Below, piece after piece: positions 29,332 to 37,831 of a stretch of DNA of 39,336 bases. Origin of the DNA: Phycisphaera sp. (GTDB lineage Bacteria; Planctomycetota; Phycisphaerae; Phycisphaerales; Zrk34); the NCBI GenBank assembly GCA_016125285.1, contig WGMA01000059.1, forward strand, positions 1-39,336, read 5' to 3'. Each line of letters begins with the position of its first letter. The first letter of the stretch is position 1. The notes under the pieces were generated by a model that worked only from the letters and a program-made list of their open reading frames with translations, was not told where the DNA came from and did not search any database. Both the position numbers and the translations under genes were made by a program.

Positions 29332-31005
29332 TCAGATATCGGCCCACTCGGGGTCGACGTCCTCGCCGGCGGAACTTTCGCTGGACTTCGAGCGTTTGGC
29401 GCGGAGCGTCATCTCGACGGTGGTGCCCTTGCCGCGTTCGGTGTCGAGGATCTTCACATCGCCGCCGTAGCGTTGGGCGATGCGTTTGGCGGCGGCGAGG
29501 CCGAGCCCGGCGCCGGTCAGCTGCTTGGAGGTGCGGAACGGGACGCAGGCCTCCTTGAGTTCCTCGGGCATCATGCCGCGACCGTTGTCGTTGATGCGGA
29601 TGACGATCCGCTTGGCCTTCTCGTCGAAGCGGGCGCCGATGGTCACGGCGCCGCGTTTGGGCTCGGCGGCCTCGTGGGCGTTGTCGAACAGGTTCATGAT
29701 CGCCTGGCGGATGTCGTCCGGGTCGCCGACCACGGTCGGCAGGTCCTCTTCCATGTCGGTGATGACGGCCTGCTTCTTCTCATCGATCTCGGGCTGGCGT
29801 TCGCGGACGATGGAGATCATGGTGTCGTTGATGTCGACGGCGATCTTGCGCGGCTTGTGGTCGGGGCTGAACACGAGCATGTTGCGCGTCAGCGTGGCGA
29901 TGCGGTGCATGCTCGAGCCGATCAGCTTGCCGGCGCGTTCGAGCGCGTCGTCCTGCTTGGTCTCGATGCCGTGCTCGAGGGCCTTCTCGCCCTTGTTGGC
30001 CTCGCGGAGGATGTTGGCCAGGACGTGGGCGATCTCGCCGGCCTGCTCGAGGCGTTCCTCGACGACGCCCTCCTTGAAGCTGTGCAGCGACGCGAGGGCG
30101 AGGCCGGCCTGGATGCCGATGGCGGTCATCAGCTCGAGCTGATCGCCGGTGAAGGTGAGGTTGGCGATGGAGCTGTCGACGTAGATGACGCCGAACTTCT
30201 GTCCGTGGTAGGCGACGGGCACGCAGATGGCCGAGCGGATGCCGCCCATCTGGATCGAGTCGCCGGCGGAGAAGCGCGCGTCGGTCATCGCGTTGGACGT
30301 CAGCACGCCCTCCTGCTTCTCGTCGACGTGATGGATGATGGTGCGGCTGATGCCCAGCGAGGTGTCGGCGCGCTCGCCCTCGGGCTCCTTCTCGAACTTC
30401 GCGATGACGGGCGTCAGCTCGCCGGCGTCGTCGTCGCGGAGGAGGATCGCGCCGCGCTCCGGCTCGAAGTGCGTGAACACCAGGTCCATGATCTTGTCGA
30501 GCAGCGTCTTGCGGTCGAGGTACGCGCCGACCATCTTGGTCATCTCGTAGATGACCTTCAGGTGCTCCACGGCCGCCTCGGTCGGCTCCGGCACCGCCAT
30601 GATGATCGATTCTTCGTTGGGGTTGGTCGTCGAGTGGAACGACACGTCGATGTGGGTGGGGTCGAGGATCTCGACGTAGTCGGCGGCCTCGCGGTCTCTG
30701 GTCGGCTCGTCGCCGACGTTGATCTCCAGCTGCGTGGCGCCGATGCGGACGCGGTCGCCGGCGCCGAGCTTGGCGATGTCCTCGACGCGCGTGCCGTTGA
30801 CGTAGGTGCCGTTGGACGAGCCGAGGTCGCGGATGAACCAGTCGCCCTTGTACGCGCCGATCTTCGCGTGTCGACGCGACATCGTCGCGTCGCGCAGCGG
30901 CAGATCCTTGCTGTTGCGACCCAGCAACGCGGGCTTGTCCTCGGGCAGCTCGAAACGCTGTCCCGAGTAAGGCCCTTCAATAACATCGATGATCAGAACG
31001 CTCAT
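29332..31005 (-). CDS. FHA-GAF sensor histidine kinase
   Basis: 557 residues, no membrane segment. Residues about 20-97 are an FHA domain (LLGRNSKDLPL, SRRHAKI, GSSNGTYVNG) that reads phospho-Thr. Residues 150-310 are a GAF domain (SAICVPVAYHGQKFGVIYVDS). The phosphoacceptor is probably His327 in IAHVLANILRE. The ATPase domain has DNAHEAAEP, INDNGRGM and GAGLGLAAAKRIAQRYGG. It is a soluble kinase coupling Ser/Thr kinase signalling with a two-component output. No response regulator lies next to it. AAAGG precedes the ATG. Confidence 0.92.
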   Translation of the reverse strand: MSVLIIDVIEGPYSGQRFELPEDKPALLGRNSKDLPLRDATMSRRHAKIGAYKGDWFIRDLGSSNGTYVNGTRVEDIAKLGAGDRVRIGATQLEINVGDEPTRDREAADYVEILDPTHIDVSFHSTTNPNEESIIMAVPEPTEAAVEHLKVIYEMTKMVGAYLDRKTLLDKIMDLVFTHFEPERGAILLRDDDAGELTPVIAKFEKEPEGERADTSLGISRTIIHHVDEKQEGVLTSNAMTDARFSAGDSIQMGGIRSAICVPVAYHGQKFGVIYVDSSIANLTFTGDQLELMTAIGIQAGLALASLHSFKEGVVEERLEQAGEIAHVLANILREANKGEKALEHGIETKQDDALERAGKLIGSSMHRIATLTRNMLVFSPDHKPRKIAVDINDTMISIVRERQPEIDEKKQAVITDMEEDLPTVVGDPDDIRQAIMNLFDNAHEAAEPKRGAVTIGARFDEKAKRIVIRINDNGRGMMPEELKEACVPFRTSKQLTGAGLGLAAAKRIAQRYGGDVKILDTERGKGTTVEMTLRAKRSKSSESSAGEDVDPEWADI

Positions 31006-31091: not shown

Positions 31092-32492
31092 TCAGCGGTT
31101 CGCCTCCCAGGCGTCGTGCAGCTTCTTGAGCCGCGCCACGACGTCCGGGTGATCGGCCGCGAGGTTCTTCGACTCCGCGACGTCCTGGTCGAGGTTCGAG
31201 AGAAACAGCCTGCGGTCCTCGTCGGACAGCTTGGGCCCGTCGACGGCGGGCATGACGTTGCCCTGCAGCTTCCAGGGCCCCTGCCGCACCGCCCACCGCG
31301 CGCCCTTGCCCCCGCCCAGCTCCCAGTGCACCACATCGTGTGGTGAGGGGGCGTCGGCGTCCTTGACCATCTTCACGATGCTCTTGCCGTCGATGTCTTC
31401 GTTGAGCAGCGGCACGCCGCACAGCTCGGCGATGGTCGGCATCCAGTCGCAGCCGTGGGCGAGCTGGTCGCGCACCTCGCCGGCGGGCAGGTGGCCCGGC
31501 CAGCTGATGACGGCCAGCACGCGCAGGCCGCCCTCGAACATCGTGAACTTGTGCCCGACGTAGGGGCCGTTCGACCCGCCGCCGCCGTGCGCCCGCTCCT
31601 CGACGGAGTGGCCGTGGTCCGACTGGTAGATGACGATGGTGTCGTTCTTGAGGCCCGCGGCGTCGATCTTGCCGATCAGCGCCTTGATGCGTTCGTCGAG
31701 CGTGGTGACGAACGCGGCGTAGACGCTGCGCGGGAACGGCACGTGCGCGTCTTCGTAGTGCTTCACCCACACCGGGTCGCCCTGGTAGGGATAGTGCGGG
31801 TTGTTCATCGCGTAGTACATGAAGAACGGCGAGTCCTTGTGGGCGTCGATGAACGCGGAGGCCTTTTCAAGCATGAGGTCGGGGAAGTAGCGACCGGGCA
31901 TGCGGACACGCGTGTTGTTCTCCCACAGGTCGTGTCGGTTGGGGCCGGACCAGTAGAAGAAGTGCGTGTAGTTGTCGATGCATCCGCCCATGTGACCGAA
32001 GGAGTAGTCGAATCCCTGGTCGAGGGGCTTGGCGCCGGGTCCGCAGTGCAGGTGCCACTTGCCGATGTGCGCGGTGGCGTAGCCGGCCTTCTTGAGCATC
32101 TCGGCGATGGTGATCTGCGCGGCGATCTCGGCGCCGCCTCCGCCGGAGTCGGCCAGGTCGTTGACGGACTCGACGGGCGGCGCGCCGGCGTTGCCGGGCA
32201 TGCCGGCGCGGACGGGGTATCGGCCGGTGAGCAGGCCGGCGCGGCTGGGCGAGCAGACGGGGGCGGCGGCGTAGAACTGCGTGAAGCGGACGCCGCGCGC
32301 CGCGAGCATGTCGATGCCGGGCGTGGTCAGGTCGGTCGAGCCGTAGCAGTTGGCGTCGACCGAGCCCTGGTCGTCGGTGAGCACGATGATGACGTTGGGC
32401 TGGCGCGCGTCGACGTGCGTCGCGACGGCGCACAGCGTCAGCGCTGCCATGATGAGCGCAAGCGGCCACTGGGTCACACGCGATCGCGCCAT
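31092..32492 (-). CDS. Secreted sulfatase (Cys-type)
   Basis: 466 residues. Signal peptide MARSRVTQWPLALIMAAL, then NVIIVLTDDQG with metal-binding Asp pair, and CSPSR at 80-84, the Cys that is oxidised to formylglycine. GKWHLHCG and HGHSVEERAHGGG provide further active-site residues. The enzyme removes sulfate from polysaccharides or glycosaminoglycans outside the cytoplasm. It needs an anaerobic or aerobic maturase, which is not in this window. AAAGGGA stands ten bases before the ATG. Confidence 0.93.
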   Translation of the reverse strand: MARSRVTQWPLALIMAALTLCAVATHVDARQPNVIIVLTDDQGSVDANCYGSTDLTTPGIDMLAARGVRFTQFYAAAPVCSPSRAGLLTGRYPVRAGMPGNAGAPPVESVNDLADSGGGGAEIAAQITIAEMLKKAGYATAHIGKWHLHCGPGAKPLDQGFDYSFGHMGGCIDNYTHFFYWSGPNRHDLWENNTRVRMPGRYFPDLMLEKASAFIDAHKDSPFFMYYAMNNPHYPYQGDPVWVKHYEDAHVPFPRSVYAAFVTTLDERIKALIGKIDAAGLKNDTIVIYQSDHGHSVEERAHGGGGSNGPYVGHKFTMFEGGLRVLAVISWPGHLPAGEVRDQLAHGCDWMPTIAELCGVPLLNEDIDGKSIVKMVKDADAPSPHDVVHWELGGGKGARWAVRQGPWKLQGNVMPAVDGPKLSDEDRRLFLSNLDQDVAESKNLAADHPDVVARLKKLHDAWEANR

Positions 32493-32569
32493 TCTCGCCG
32501 GCTCCCTTTCCCCGAAACGGTCCTCACAACCAAACGTGCCCGCGTCGCGTGGGCGCGACGCGCAAAACG

Positions 32570-34111
32570 TCACTTCTTGTCGATGGGCTTCCGCGGGTCC
32601 TTCGCGCCGAGCGGATGCTCTTTGGTCTTCTCACGCTCGTCGCGCATCGGCGGCTTCTGATCGTCGTCGCGCTTCGGCACGTTCGGCTTCGGCACGGTCG
32701 GCGTCTTCTTGAGGATGCCCGAGTTGCGGCCCTCGATGTCCGAGCCGCCGCGGCGGTCACGCGCCCCCAGCGGGCTCTTGAGATTGATCTTGCCGGGCTG
32801 ACGCTCGTTGCCTTCGCCCGTCGTCGTCTTCGACGGCACCGTCGGCTTGACCGGCGCGGGCGTCGGCGTCGGCTCGGGCTTCGGCGCAGGCGTCGGTGTG
32901 GGCTCGGGCTTCGGCGTCGGCTCGGGCTTCGGCGTGGGCTCGGGCTTCGGCGTCGGCTCGGGTGTCGGCGTCGGCTCAGGCTTCGGACCGGCCTTCGGCG
33001 TGGACGCGGGCTTCGGCGTCACGCCCGTTGCGGGCGTGGGCGTCGAACCCGGCGCGGGCTTGATTTCCTGCGCGGGCAGCGGCTTGGGCCCGACCGTCGG
33101 CGCGGGCGTGGCGGACGGACCGGTCTTCGGCTCCGTGCCGCCCGGCAGCGGTGTCGGCAGCGGCGCGGGCACACGCGGCGAACCGTCGCCGTTCAACTCG
33201 CCGTCCTTGATCGTCTGCACCGGCGTCGGCTTCGGCGCCAGCAGCGAAGGATCGATCGCCGGCCCGGGCGTCGGCTCGGGCTGCGGCGTCGGCGTGGGCG
33301 TCGGCTCGGGCGTCGGCTCGGGCGTCGGTGTGGGCTCGGGTGTCGGCGTCGGCGTGGGCGTCGGCGTCGGCTCGGTGGTCGTGCCCGTGCCCGCGCCCTC
33401 GGGGTGCAGCAGCTTGCCGTTGATCGTGACCTGCCGACGGTTGTTCATCTTGATGATGTCGCCGTCGAGTTCGATCACGAGCCACGGGATCTCCTGCAGC
33501 AGCGCCGCGCAGCCGTCGGGCGTGACCTGCGTCTTGGCCAGACGCAGCCACTTCATCGACTTGACCTTGCCGAGCTTGAGGATGCCGGCGTCGGTGATGT
33601 CGTCGTAGCCGAAGTGCATCTTCTCGACGAAGTGGTACCCGCCGAGCTGCGTCATCTGCTCGTCGGTCATGCCGACGTCGATCAGGCGCAGCTCCGTAAG
33701 CCCCGTCAGCCCGCCGACCGCTTCGACCGCCTTGGGCGACAGGTCGGTCTTCGCGATCATCAGTTCCTTGAGGCCCTTGAACCTCGCGAGCTGCTTGAGC
33801 GCCTTGTCATTGATCGGCGACTTGACGATCGTCACGTTCGCCGGGTTCATCAGGTGCGGGAACAGGTCGATGATGCGCTTGGTGTTGCTCTCGTTGACGT
33901 TGTGGATGTCAACGGCGGTGCCTTCCTGAATGCGCACGGTCTTGCCGCCCAGGGCTTCGATCTTCTTCGTCGCGAGGTTGTGATCCTTGAGGTCCGCTTC
34001 GTACTGATCAAACGCCGGACGCCACGGCCGATCCGCCGCGTGCACACCGACAACGCACGTCAATACACACAGCCCGGCCAGAACGACGATAGTGCGTGGG
34101 ACCCCATTCAT
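32570..34111 (-). CDS. Secreted leucine-rich protein with long Pro/Thr-rich region
   Basis: 513 residues. Signal peptide TIVVLAGLCVLTCVVGVHA. Residues 50-230 show leucine-rich-repeat-like units: LKQLARFKGLKELMIAKTDL, LTGLTELRLIDVG, MKWLRLAKTQV. Residues 243-282 and 374-420 consist of PTPTPEPT and PKPEPTPKPEP repeats. The C-terminal 80 residues are basic and polar (RDRRGGSD, DDQKPPMRDEREK). The protein is probably surface exposed, with the Pro/Thr stretch as a stiff spacer. A TACTAT hexamer lies six bases before its ATG. Confidence 0.75.
   Translation of the reverse strand: MNGVPRTIVVLAGLCVLTCVVGVHAADRPWRPAFDQYEADLKDHNLATKKIEALGGKTVRIQEGTAVDIHNVNESNTKRIIDLFPHLMNPANVTIVKSPINDKALKQLARFKGLKELMIAKTDLSPKAVEAVGGLTGLTELRLIDVGMTDEQMTQLGGYHFVEKMHFGYDDITDAGILKLGKVKSMKWLRLAKTQVTPDGCAALLQEIPWLVIELDGDIIKMNNRRQVTINGKLLHPEGAGTGTTTEPTPTPTPTPTPEPTPTPEPTPEPTPTPTPQPEPTPGPAIDPSLLAPKPTPVQTIKDGELNGDGSPRVPAPLPTPLPGGTEPKTGPSATPAPTVGPKPLPAQEIKPAPGSTPTPATGVTPKPASTPKAGPKPEPTPTPEPTPKPEPTPKPEPTPKPEPTPTPAPKPEPTPTPAPVKPTVPSKTTTGEGNERQPGKINLKSPLGARDRRGGSDIEGRNSGILKKTPTVPKPNVPKRDDDQKPPMRDEREKTKEHPLGAKDPRKPIDKK
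32850..33385 (-). repeat. Two blocks of Pro-Thr/Pro-Glu codon repeats
   Basis: Blocks at about 33265-33385 and 32850-32990 inside the leucine-rich gene consist of six-base GGCGTC/GGCTCG-type units, coding PTPEPT and PKPEPT. Such repeats expand and contract by slippage. Confidence 0.75.
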
Positions 34112-34777: not shown

Positions 34778-35926
34778 TCACGCGGCGGTATGTTTCTTCT
34801 CGATCACGGGCTTGCCGTTGATCGTCACGTGCTCGAGGTGCGCCAGCGGGCCGTGCGGCTTGCCCTTTTCGGCTTCGAGCTTCTTCTGCGCCGTGGGGTT
34901 GGCGTAGGTGTTGAACACCATCGCCTTGATCGTCGCCCACATGCCGCCGAAGCTCGCGAACGTGTGGTTCACCGCAGACGCCTCGTGGCCCGAGTGGACC
35001 ATGCACTGCTGACACGCCGGGTTGCCCGACTCCAGCCCGTAGTTCTCCCACCGCGTGTCGTTCATCAACTCGTCGAACGTATCCACGTAGCCGTCCTGCA
35101 GCAGGTAGCACGGCTTCTGCCAGCCGAACATGTTGTAGGTCGGCATGCCCCACGGCGTGCACTCGTAGTGCCGGTCGCCCATGAGGTACTCCAGGAACAG
35201 CGGCGACTGGTTGAACACCCAGCGCTTCTTGCGGTTGGACAGCAGCGTCTTGAACGCCGCCTCGGTCTCGGCGCGCTCGCGCAGGAAAGATTGCTGATCG
35301 GGCGCCTTGGGGTAGGCGTAGCCGGGGCTGACCATCATGCCCTCGACGCCGATGTCGGTCATCTCGTCGAAGAACGCCCGCACGCTGTTGGGGTCGAACC
35401 CGTCGAACAGCGTCGTGTTGGTCGTCACGCGGAAGCCCTGCTTGACGGCCATGCGGATCGCCTCGGTGGCCGTCTCGAAGGTGCCCTCGCGACAGACCGC
35501 GAAGTCGTGCTCCTCCCGCTGGCCGTCCATGTGGACCGAGAACGTCAGGTACTTGCTGGGCTTGAACCACCCGCCGTCCAGCGCCTCCTTGAGCTTCAGG
35601 GCGTTGGTGCACAGGTAGATGTACTTGCGGCGCTTGATCAGCTCCTGGACCAGCTCGCGGATGTGCGGGTACAGCAGCGGCTCGCCGCCGGGGATCGACA
35701 CCATCGGCGCCCCGCACTCGTCGACCGCCTTGAGGCAGTCGGCCAGCGGCACGTCCTTCTTGAGGATGTGAGCCGGGTACTGGATCTTCCCGCAGCCCGC
35801 GCACGCGAGGTTGCAACGGAACAGCGGCTCGAGCATCAACACCAACGGATAACGCTTACGGCGCTTGATCTTCTGGCCAAGCACGTAGGTCGCCACCGTC
35901 CACATCTGCGATACAGGCACACCCAT
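34778..35926 (-). CDS. hpnH: Adenosyl-hopene transferase HpnH (radical SAM)
   Basis: 382 residues. LEPLFRCNLACAGCGKIQYP contains the CxxxCxxC (38, 42, 45) of radical SAM enzymes and is diagnostic for HpnH. SIPGGEPLLYP and SVHMDGQREEHD follow. The C-terminal part has further Cys (NPACQQCMVHSGHE). HpnH joins a 5'-deoxyadenosyl group to diploptene, the first step of extended hopanoids in membranes. The ATG at 35926 is preferred over a GTG at 35935, since AGGAG has better spacing and relatives begin there. No squalene-hopene cyclase gene is in the window. Confidence 0.95.
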   Translation of the reverse strand: MGVPVSQMWTVATYVLGQKIKRRKRYPLVLMLEPLFRCNLACAGCGKIQYPAHILKKDVPLADCLKAVDECGAPMVSIPGGEPLLYPHIRELVQELIKRRKYIYLCTNALKLKEALDGGWFKPSKYLTFSVHMDGQREEHDFAVCREGTFETATEAIRMAVKQGFRVTTNTTLFDGFDPNSVRAFFDEMTDIGVEGMMVSPGYAYPKAPDQQSFLRERAETEAAFKTLLSNRKKRWVFNQSPLFLEYLMGDRHYECTPWGMPTYNMFGWQKPCYLLQDGYVDTFDELMNDTRWENYGLESGNPACQQCMVHSGHEASAVNHTFASFGGMWATIKAMVFNTYANPTAQKKLEAEKGKPHGPLAHLEHVTINGKPVIEKKHTAA

Positions 35927-35968
35927 GGGACACACATCTCCTGCGAACGAGTCGCGATTAAGGGAGAT

Positions 35969-36040: not shown

Positions 36041-36082
36041 AAATCCCGTGGGATTTTCCAGTTGCCGTTCAATCTATATAAT
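36041..36082 (+). promoter_or_regulatory. Promoter of the sigma-factor gene with an upstream inverted repeat
   Basis: TATAAT at 36077-36082 is followed by a leader of about 20 bases. Upstream AAATCCC-GT-GGGATTT (36041-36056), an inverted repeat of seven-base arms, covers the place where a -35 contact would be. It may be an operator or a binding site of the sigma factor's own regulator. Confidence 0.5.
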
Positions 36083-36109: not shown

Positions 36110-36736
36110 TTGAACGACACGGCCACAACCCAGCCCGACCCCGCCGAGCTGACCGACGAGCAGCTCATGGCGCTGTATCAGCAGGGTCACGAGGCGGTGT
36201 TCCCCGTGATCATCCAGCGTTACCGCCGCGAGCTGTTCAACTTCCTGGTCCGCTTCCTGGGCGACAAGGCCGCGGCGGAAGACGTGTTCCAGGAGGCTTT
36301 TCTGCAGGTTCACCTCTCCGCCGACCGCTTCGACACCGAAAAACGCTTCAAGCCGTGGCTGTTCACGATCGCCGCGAACAAGGGCCGCGATTACATGCGT
36401 AAGCGGGTCCGCCGGCGGGCCTCCACCCTCGACGCGCCGATCGACTCGTCGGGCGACGGGCAGAGTTTTGTCGACCTTCTCGAGGCCGACATGCCCCAGC
36501 CGGACGAAAACCTCGCCGAGGACGAGCTGCGAAACCGGGTGATGCAGGCGATCGGCGAGATGCCCGAACACCTCCGAGAGATTTTATTACTCTCTTATTT
36601 TCAACAACTTTCGTACAACGACATCGCCGACATGCTCGAGATTCCGCTCGGGACCGTCAAGAGCCGCCTGCACACGGCGGTCGGGACTTTCGCAAAAAAA
36701 TGGAAAAAGCTGAACCCCGGCAGAGAATCGGCGTAG
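36110..36736 (+). CDS. ECF-type RNA polymerase sigma factor
   Basis: 208 residues from a TTG start with AGAGG eight bases upstream. Region 2 is RYRRELFNFLVRFLGDKAAAEDVFQEAFLQ to FKPWLFTIAANKGRDYMRKRVRRR; region 4 is MPEHLREILLLSYFQQLSYNDIADMLEIPLGTVKSRLH. It directs RNA polymerase to a special set of promoters. The gene directly downstream codes for a membrane protein, the usual place of an anti-sigma factor. Confidence 0.9.
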   Translation: MNDTATTQPDPAELTDEQLMALYQQGHEAVFPVIIQRYRRELFNFLVRFLGDKAAAEDVFQEAFLQVHLSADRFDTEKRFKPWLFTIAANKGRDYMRKRVRRRASTLDAPIDSSGDGQSFVDLLEADMPQPDENLAEDELRNRVMQAIGEMPEHLREILLLSYFQQLSYNDIADMLEIPLGTVKSRLHTAVGTFAKKWKKLNPGRESA

Positions 36737-36778
36737 CAAACCTTGGTCAGACGGAGATCCGCAGCGCTGGAGGCAGCC

Positions 36779-37831
36779 ATGGATCCGAACGTTCCGAATG
36801 AAGCGATGAACGAAAACCCTATCCACATCCTGAGCCCGCAGGATCAGTCCGCGCTCGACGCGCTGATGGAGGTCGGCTTCAACGCCGACGCCGTCCGCGC
36901 CGAAGACGCCCAGCACGGCGAACGCGCCCAGCGCCTGGTCGCGTTGCTCGGCACGCTCAACGCCCTGCCGGACGAAGACGCCGGCGATCTGCTCGTCGAG
37001 CGCACGCTGCAGTCGATCCGCCAGCACCGCTACGACGACCACGTCGCGCAGCCCGACGAGATGCACGTGTCCGGCGGCGGCCTGCCGTTCAAGCTGCCCG
37101 AACTGATCGCCGTGGCCGCGATGCTCATGATCTGCCTGTCGATCCTCTGGCCGATCCTCGCACACGCCCGCGCCACCGCACGGCAGATCGCCTGCCAGGC
37201 GAACCTCGCGCAGGTCGGCCTCGGCCTCACCGCGTACGCCCGCGACAACAACGACCAGATGCCCGCCACACGCGCCCGACTCGGCGACCCGTGGTGGAAC
37301 GTCGGCTCGACCAGCAGGGACGGCTACGCCCAGTCCAACTCGGCGCACCTGTTCACCCTCGTCCGCAACGGCTACGCCACGCTCGGCGATCTGCACTGCC
37401 CCGAGAATCAGTCCGAGACGCTCGCCTACACCGACGGCATGACCGACTGGCCCGACGCCCGACACACCAGCTACAGCTATCAGAACCAGTACACCAAGGA
37501 TCGGCCCCGCTTCGACAAGGGCGACACGATGGCCGTCCTGTCCGACAAGAACCCGTTCTTCCGTCCCGGCAGCGCCGAGAAGTTCGACATGGCCCTCAAG
37601 CCGTCGCGCAACTCCAACAACCACGCCCTGCTCGGACGCTTCGAGAACGGCCGCAACGTCGGCGGACAGAACGTCCTGCTGACCAACGGCTCGGTCACGT
37701 GGATGGACACCCCGATCCTCCACAAGCAGCAGAACACCGACAACATCTTCCACGCCGGCTCCACCGGCCAGGACTACTACACCGGCCTCGAAGGCCCTTC
37801 CGATCGCAACGATTCCTTCCTCGTCCCGTAA
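36779..37831 (+). CDS. Membrane protein: possible anti-sigma N-terminus fused to a pseudopilin-like domain
   Basis: 350 residues. The first 100 form a soluble, acidic, helical region (SALDALMEVGFNADAV, RAQRLVALLGTLNALP). One membrane helix lies at 106-128. It is followed by ARATARQIACQANLAQVGLGLTAYARDNNDQMPA, the pattern of the pseudopilin/H-X9-DG-type family, and near the end by NHALLGRFENG and NVLLTNGSVTWMD, the family's C-terminal motif. In normal members the helix is N-terminal; here it is internal. GGAGG precedes the ATG at 36779, which is 42 bases after the sigma factor stop. Function as anti-sigma is inferred from position. Confidence 0.7.
   Translation: MDPNVPNEAMNENPIHILSPQDQSALDALMEVGFNADAVRAEDAQHGERAQRLVALLGTLNALPDEDAGDLLVERTLQSIRQHRYDDHVAQPDEMHVSGGGLPFKLPELIAVAAMLMICLSILWPILAHARATARQIACQANLAQVGLGLTAYARDNNDQMPATRARLGDPWWNVGSTSRDGYAQSNSAHLFTLVRNGYATLGDLHCPENQSETLAYTDGMTDWPDARHTSYSYQNQYTKDRPRFDKGDTMAVLSDKNPFFRPGSAEKFDMALKPSRNSNNHALLGRFENGRNVGGQNVLLTNGSVTWMDTPILHKQQNTDNIFHAGSTGQDYYTGLEGPSDRNDSFLVP

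Follow-up and report, generated by a model that had tools for sequence, protein, structure and literature searches.

An ECF sigma factor paired across the Phycisphaerae with a probable anti-sigma factor bearing a pseudopilin-derived sensor half

Why should a membrane protein with a pseudopilin-like ectodomain be encoded directly behind an ECF sigma factor, in the position of an anti-sigma factor? The question is raised by two genes in a 39,336-nucleotide contig of Phycisphaera sp. (WGMA01000059.1, assembly GCA_016125285.1; order Phycisphaerales, class Phycisphaerae, phylum Planctomycetota), the whole of which is called the window below. To our knowledge, genomes of Planctomycetota carry tens to more than 100 DUF1559 pseudopilins each, and these are without known function. 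DUF1559/SBP_bac_10 pseudopilins have been described in the phylum (PMC8567305), and in Planctopirus limnophila DUF1559 is the largest paralogue group (PMC10632474). A sequence-only reading of the window had proposed that the downstream protein has the layout of an anti-sigma factor and uses the pseudopilin fold as its sensor. Our results agree in the main: the gene very probably encodes a membrane-anchored anti-sigma factor of the class I type, with a sensor half derived from a pseudopilin and a prepilin peptidase site so decayed that the protein stays uncut.

The two genes share strand and frame (Table 1). That the first encodes an ECF sigma factor was confirmed by Pfam (Sigma70_r2, 5.9e-18; Sigma70_r4_2, 8.3e-15) and by the sigma70-ECF model TIGR02937, which scored 108.5 bits against a cut-off of 42.9; the protein consists of regions 2 and 4 only, and SigW is among its nearest NCBIfam models. 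The partner begins with an ATG 42 nt after the sigma gene. A single TAG is the only in-frame stop between them, and in most relatives the partner start codon overlaps the sigma stop (-1) or lies close by. Translation, Pfam (SBP_bac_10/DUF1559) and an AlphaFold model also bore out the proposed make-up of the partner, in which a soluble helical N-terminal region is followed by a single internal membrane helix and then by an ectodomain of the pseudopilin type.

Table 1. Features of the sigma-partner locus, in window coordinates.
Feature	Position	Strand	Basis or remark
Inverted repeat AAATCCC-GT-GGGATTT	36041..36056		Chance-level, not conserved
TATAAT, candidate housekeeping -10 box	36077..36082	+	About 28 nt 5' of sigma start; hexamer over-represented 5' of orthologues
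ECF sigma factor gene, 208 aa	36110..36736	+	TTG start, stop TAG 36734-36736; Pfam Sigma70_r2, Sigma70_r4_2
Partner gene, 350 aa: anti-sigma domain, membrane helix, pilin-like ectodomain	36779..37831	+	Translation, conserved sigma neighbour, AlphaFold model
Anti-sigma domain (ASD), residues 14-90	36818..37048	+	AlphaFold helices; NCBIfam anti-sigma and RskA via relatives; coevolution with sigma
Prepilin cleavage-site remnant P103-F104 (-1/+1), E108 at +5	37085..37090	+	VIA-align pairs model residue 104 with residue 1 of mature pilin
Pilin alpha-1 helix, transmembrane and periplasmic part, residues 104-156	37088..37246	+	Single 51-residue helix 106-156 in model
Cys139, probable disulfide with Cys207	37193..37195	+	Joint presence/absence in relatives
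Cys207, probable disulfide with Cys139	37397..37399	+	Joint presence/absence in relatives
Pilin-like beta ectodomain, residues 157-350	37247..37828	+	Top five PDB chains all type IV pilins, Z 3.2-4.3

The computed pairing of the two genes extends through nearly the whole class as sampled. Sigma orthologues were present in 148 of the 151 sampled genomes of the order and in 177 of 198 class-wide, in both samples as a single copy with few exceptions. Relatives of the partner were matched in 51 of 61 related genomes, in most of them full-length or nearly so and in single copy, and a sigma orthologue lay directly 5' of the partner gene at all 30 first-round partner loci. Among 252 sigma loci, a set that includes some genomes twice and reduces to 212 pairs once duplicates are removed, 225 had a single ORF spanning N-domain, membrane helix and ectodomain; the others, some cut by contig ends, had the N-domain only (16), the ectodomain only (2) or neither (9). 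The same gene adjoined 149 of the 160 sigma loci that were independent of model building. The neighbourhood is conserved, as the sequence-only reading required, and no other anti-sigma gene was encountered beside the sigma orthologues. In a phylum-wide sample of 246 genomes, full-length matches were confined to the class of the window. Searches of genome contigs with the partner sequence alone gave no match, and it was the sigma profile that found the loci. Within the window genome the partner has about 100 DUF1559-like paralogues, nearly all of which match only its membrane helix and the residues behind it.

Several lines of evidence support well the identification of the partner N-domain as a divergent class I anti-sigma domain. 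In the basal families, N-domains read as a classical ASD (LLDYxLGxLDexE...PPxDLxxRTLxRV). The NCBIfam anti-sigma factor model NF052375 matched 18 of 23 of these, at best with 2.1e-12, which is below the whole-protein cut-off, and RskA was the top PDB profile match for the basal-family ASD (E 0.022). When profiles were compared with hhalign, the window-type ASD scored 96.8% against the basal ASD and 97.9% against a stand-alone ASD described below, versus 0.4% for an unrelated control. The window protein's own N-domain was matched directly by no anti-sigma model in Pfam and NCBIfam HMM searches, so its anti-sigma homology runs through these relatives; its profile gave only chance-type matches in the PDB, the best being lysozyme over 25 residues. 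AlphaFold predicted for it a three-helix bundle and a fourth helix (residues 20-31, 36-42, 44-61 and 72-90), mostly at pLDDT above 80.

Two variants of the domain were seen in relatives. One family of the class, f11, has behind the sigma gene a soluble stand-alone ASD of about 100 aa with neither membrane helix nor pilin domain (L044-L046, L048, L049, L051, L053, L055, L059, L063, L065, L066 and L105); this form may be either ancestral or reduced. In 58 of 225 partner proteins the ASD occurs in tandem, once in triplicate (loci include L014, L025, L026, L028-L032, L034, L035, L037 and L056); it is unusual for an anti-sigma factor to have more than one ASD.

Since only the single in-frame TAG separates the genes, a single-chain model could be built from sigma, the natural spacer and the N-domain. 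The alignment used for this fusion (A5) held in-frame fusions and sigma rows only, mixed alignments that included partner-only rows (A2, A3) having been misaligned by MAFFT and dropped. The resulting complex, which is artificial in reading through the TAG, comes without PAE and resembles complexes already seen by AlphaFold, reached pLDDT 87 and pTM 0.79, with the N-domain helices at pLDDT 93-97. Sigma and N-domain are in contact in this model and arranged as in an inhibited sigma factor: the modelled sigma superposed with both domains on RsiW-bound SigW (2.7-2.8 Å over 157-158 residues, Z 15.7) and on CnrY-bound CnrH (2.6 Å, 154 residues), and poorly on RNAP-bound sigmas (about 27 Å). From this arrangement we infer inhibition of the sigma factor by its partner.

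Further support for a direct interface comes from mean-field DCA on the 212 natural sigma-partner pairs. The strongest couplings joined ASD helix 4 to sigma region 2.1 (sigma 35-ASD 80, 39-73, 28-81, 43-68 and 60-76) and ASD helix 1 to sigma region 4 (sigma 171/173 with ASD 25/26). The top coupling was 2.00, compared with 1.09-1.33 in clade-restricted shuffles and 1.32 between sigma and the pilin helix; 15 sigma-ASD couplings exceeded the highest free-shuffle value, whereas clade-restricted shuffles gave 0-3 such couplings and the pairing of sigma with the pilin helix gave 4. Class I anti-sigma factors place helix 4 on sigma2 and helix 1 on sigma4 (PMC7406223), and the coevolving surface predicted from the pairs is this known interface.

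The rest of the partner resembles a pilin, in agreement with the proposal that a pseudopilin fold forms its extracytoplasmic part. Its sole Pfam match is SBP_bac_10/DUF1559 over residues 129-165 (E 5e-5; 23.9 bits against a cut-off of 23.3), a model that also matches 15 of 69 relatives. In the AlphaFold model a long helix leads into a beta domain. In VIA-align, the top five PDB chains for this part were all type IV pilins, at weak scores, and three of the five alignments placed residue 104 on mature-pilin residue 1; Foldseek returned nothing at E <= 0.001, its pilin matches lying at E >= 0.8. The H-X9-DG pattern read from the sequence held in part: the window protein lacks the strict form, having H282-X20-NG with an insertion and a D-to-N change and no NCBIfam match, and a close form (NH-x-x-x-GQNVL-x-x-DG) stands in the A1 consensus of its relatives. 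Membrane helix and ectodomain are in our judgement descended from a DUF1559-type pseudopilin, and the high probability that we give above is for the explanation as a whole.

At the former cleavage site, the picture is one of decay. Pfam N_methyl matched 0 of 69 partner relatives, and glycine at -1, for which the window protein has proline, occurs in 36 of 225 relatives (16%), a background level when compared with 11-24% at neighbouring positions; Gly(-1) and Glu(+5) occur together in 6 of 225. Several families still begin the helix with FTLxEL or FSLxEL, to be compared with the prepilin motif GFTLIEL, and an acid (D or E) is retained at +5 in 187 of 225, so that the pilin part could still meet the pilus machinery. 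The window genome has one prepilin peptidase and 132 other ORFs that match N_methyl. With an ASD in the leader's place and the cleavage-site glycine not conserved, the partner is probably no longer cut and is retained in the membrane. By analogy with pilin biology, its N-terminus would lie inside and its C-terminus outside.

We propose that the cytosolic ASD wraps the sigma factor, with helices 1-3 on region 4 and helix 4 on region 2.1, and would thereby hold it at the membrane, away from RNA polymerase. The ASD would have taken the position of the short prepilin leader as the peptidase site decayed, leaving an uncut, anchored protein with its pilin fold exposed in the periplasm. A signal sensed by the pilin-like part may then weaken the hold or trigger proteolysis, possibly through RseP, and so free the sigma factor; the window genome contains one strong RseP homologue. 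Candidate signals are the cell's own pilins, the state of the envelope and contact from outside.

The first of these is made plausible by signalling precedents in Pseudomonas, where PilR responds to inner-membrane levels of PilA and an intramembrane contact between PilS and pilin has been cited (PMC6058289), and where the anti-sigma factor MucA is lost in response to a truncated PilA (PMC3684759). It is therefore conceivable, if somewhat doubtful, that the same anti-sigma factor senses pilins of the inner membrane, by pool size or assembly state, through pilin-pilin contacts and not a surface or ligand. The alpha-1 helix and acidic +5 position have been kept despite loss of the cleavage site, and the genome is rich in N_methyl ORFs; on the other hand, ectodomain and cysteine pair are conserved too, and a pure membrane sensor would have no need of them. 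A tentative extension would be a class-wide switch in which a pseudopilin without cleavage site, joined to an ASD, reports the state of the pseudopilus (pilin pool, assembly, load) to transcription. If this is true, counting or feeling pilins is how Phycisphaerae regulate some of their genes.

Sensing of envelope redox or folding state through a Cys139-Cys207 disulfide, or of a ligand bound in the beta domain, seems to us unlikely. The two cysteines do appear to be gained and lost jointly (both in 62 of 69 relatives, neither in 5, a single one in 2), and D256, P259, H282, G296, Q297, L300, D321 and D345 of the ectodomain are near-invariant. However, the pair may be structural only, the system persists in lineages without the cysteines, and ordinary DUF1559 pseudopilins seem to have similar ones.

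Other explanations concern the anti-sigma role itself. It is improbable that the N-domain assists the sigma factor, as a positive partner or a chaperone, given that the modelled arrangement is that of SigW with RsiW and CnrH with CnrY, unlike RNAP-bound sigmas, and that helix 4 couples to region 2.1, for which binding to the RNAP clamp helices has been reported (PMC7406223). Even less credence is due to the idea that cleavage by prepilin peptidase between residues 103 and 104 is the signal, releasing the ASD together with sigma: the alignment of residue 104 with the first residue of mature pilins, the prepilin peptidase of the genome and the glycine found at -1 in some relatives speak for it, but that glycine does not exceed background, the window protein has proline there and N_methyl matches are absent from the relatives. 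Least probable of all is an ordinary long-leader pseudopilin merely co-transcribed with sigma, for although pilins are often found in sigma operons, with about 39 ECF sigma genes of the genome followed by a pseudopilin gene, the N-domain is conserved, coevolves specifically with sigma, has anti-sigma homology through relatives and stands alone in a sister family.

We also compared the partner, read as an anti-sigma factor, with known systems. Like the class I anti-sigma factors RsiW, RskA, RseA, MucA and CnrY, it has a 3+1-helix ASD, a gene right after that of sigma and a single membrane helix, and it shares with them the helix 4-sigma2 and helix 1-sigma4 pattern, here seen as coevolution (PMC7406223). 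Unlike them, it has a pilin fold as ectodomain and pilin alpha-1 as membrane helix, the ASD is in tandem in the proteins counted above, and the zinc-binding (ZAS) motif HxxxCxxC was found in 0 of 225 partner proteins. With DUF1559 pseudopilins it has in common a long alpha-1, the periplasmic helix start C-x-x-NL-x-x-(I/V)G-x5-YA-x-(D/N)-N, the ending H...GQNVL-x-x-DG and the SBP_bac_10 matches; it differs from them in having a cytosolic ASD where they have a prepilin leader with its N_methyl motif. Finally, as in the PilS-PilR system and PilA-triggered MucA loss of P. aeruginosa, a pilin-linked signal would be passed to transcription at the inner membrane, but in those systems the pilin is a protein of its own, which acts on a kinase or on an anti-sigma-degrading protease (PMC6058289, PMC3684759), whereas in the window pair the pilin fold is within the anti-sigma factor.

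A further parallel comes from the same genome. In the window genome (G000), 39 of 75 sigma70-region-2 genes have a same-strand N_methyl pseudopilin gene 1.70-2.15 kb downstream, where about 2 would be expected (for example L245, L246, L227 and L247); the link between sigma systems and pseudopilins thus extends well past the pair in the window. A FecR-domain membrane protein lay between sigma and pseudopilin in the one case tested, and of 30 sigma loci examined, 13 had FecR homologues. These cassettes are likewise operon-like units of a sigma factor, an anti-sigma-like membrane protein and a pseudopilin, but their pseudopilin is a separate gene with intact N_methyl, while that of the window pair is fused to the ASD.

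The anti-sigma reading is thus well supported and of the known class I kind; what is new is the pilin-derived sensor half. No description of an ASD-pilin architecture was found in the literature searched on ECF and anti-sigma factors and on planctomycete pseudopilins, and an earlier mention in planctomycete ECF papers is possible. Its near-universal presence in sampled Phycisphaerae suggests an envelope sensor of a kind not yet described, which would widen the range of sensors in ECF systems by a new type. A single-copy anti-sigma factor built from a pseudopilin across nearly a whole class offers a direct handle on the role of this fold and on its link to transcription, and clearly illustrates how the prepilin leader, a signal of the secretion type, can become a regulatory domain.

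We also examined how the sigma gene may itself be controlled. The inverted repeat in front of it, which had suggested autoregulation, does exist, but repeats of its class (7-bp arms, 0-12 nt loop) number 117 in the window, about 3 per kb, and this one is absent in close relatives, so that it does not stand as an autoregulatory site. In the family as a whole, unbiased dyad counting found GAAC-N16/17-CGTA 5' of sigma in 36 of 146 loci (N17 in 20, N16 in 16) against about 0.5 expected, and slightly longer upstream stretches raised this to 41 of about 146. The dyad, which we take to resemble promoters of the sigmaW/sigmaE type, is often 25-50 nt 5' of the start (-45 in L068, -30 in L075); the two closest relatives, L010 and L009, have it at -139 and -163. 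This upstream pattern suggests that in the family the sigma factor may be autoregulated from an ECF-type promoter. Upstream of the window sigma gene there is no GAAC/CGTA dyad with correct spacing, only the TATAAT at 36077, a hexamer that occurs 33 times upstream of sigma orthologues against 7.6 expected. A search of six genomes with the regulon pattern CGAACC-N15/16-CGTA gave no excess over a reversed-pattern control except in the window genome (27 vs 12 on the reverse strand) and in G109 (25 vs 12 in all), and no regulon was called.

Three further genes were noted, all on the minus strand of the window. The divergent neighbour at 34778-35935 has Radical_SAM and DUF3463 domains, and its product is presumably like the hopanoid enzyme HpnH. 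Farther away lie genes for a sulfatase-family protein (31092-32573) and for a cytosolic FHA-GAF kinase with FHA, GAF and histidine-kinase ATPase domains (29332-31005).
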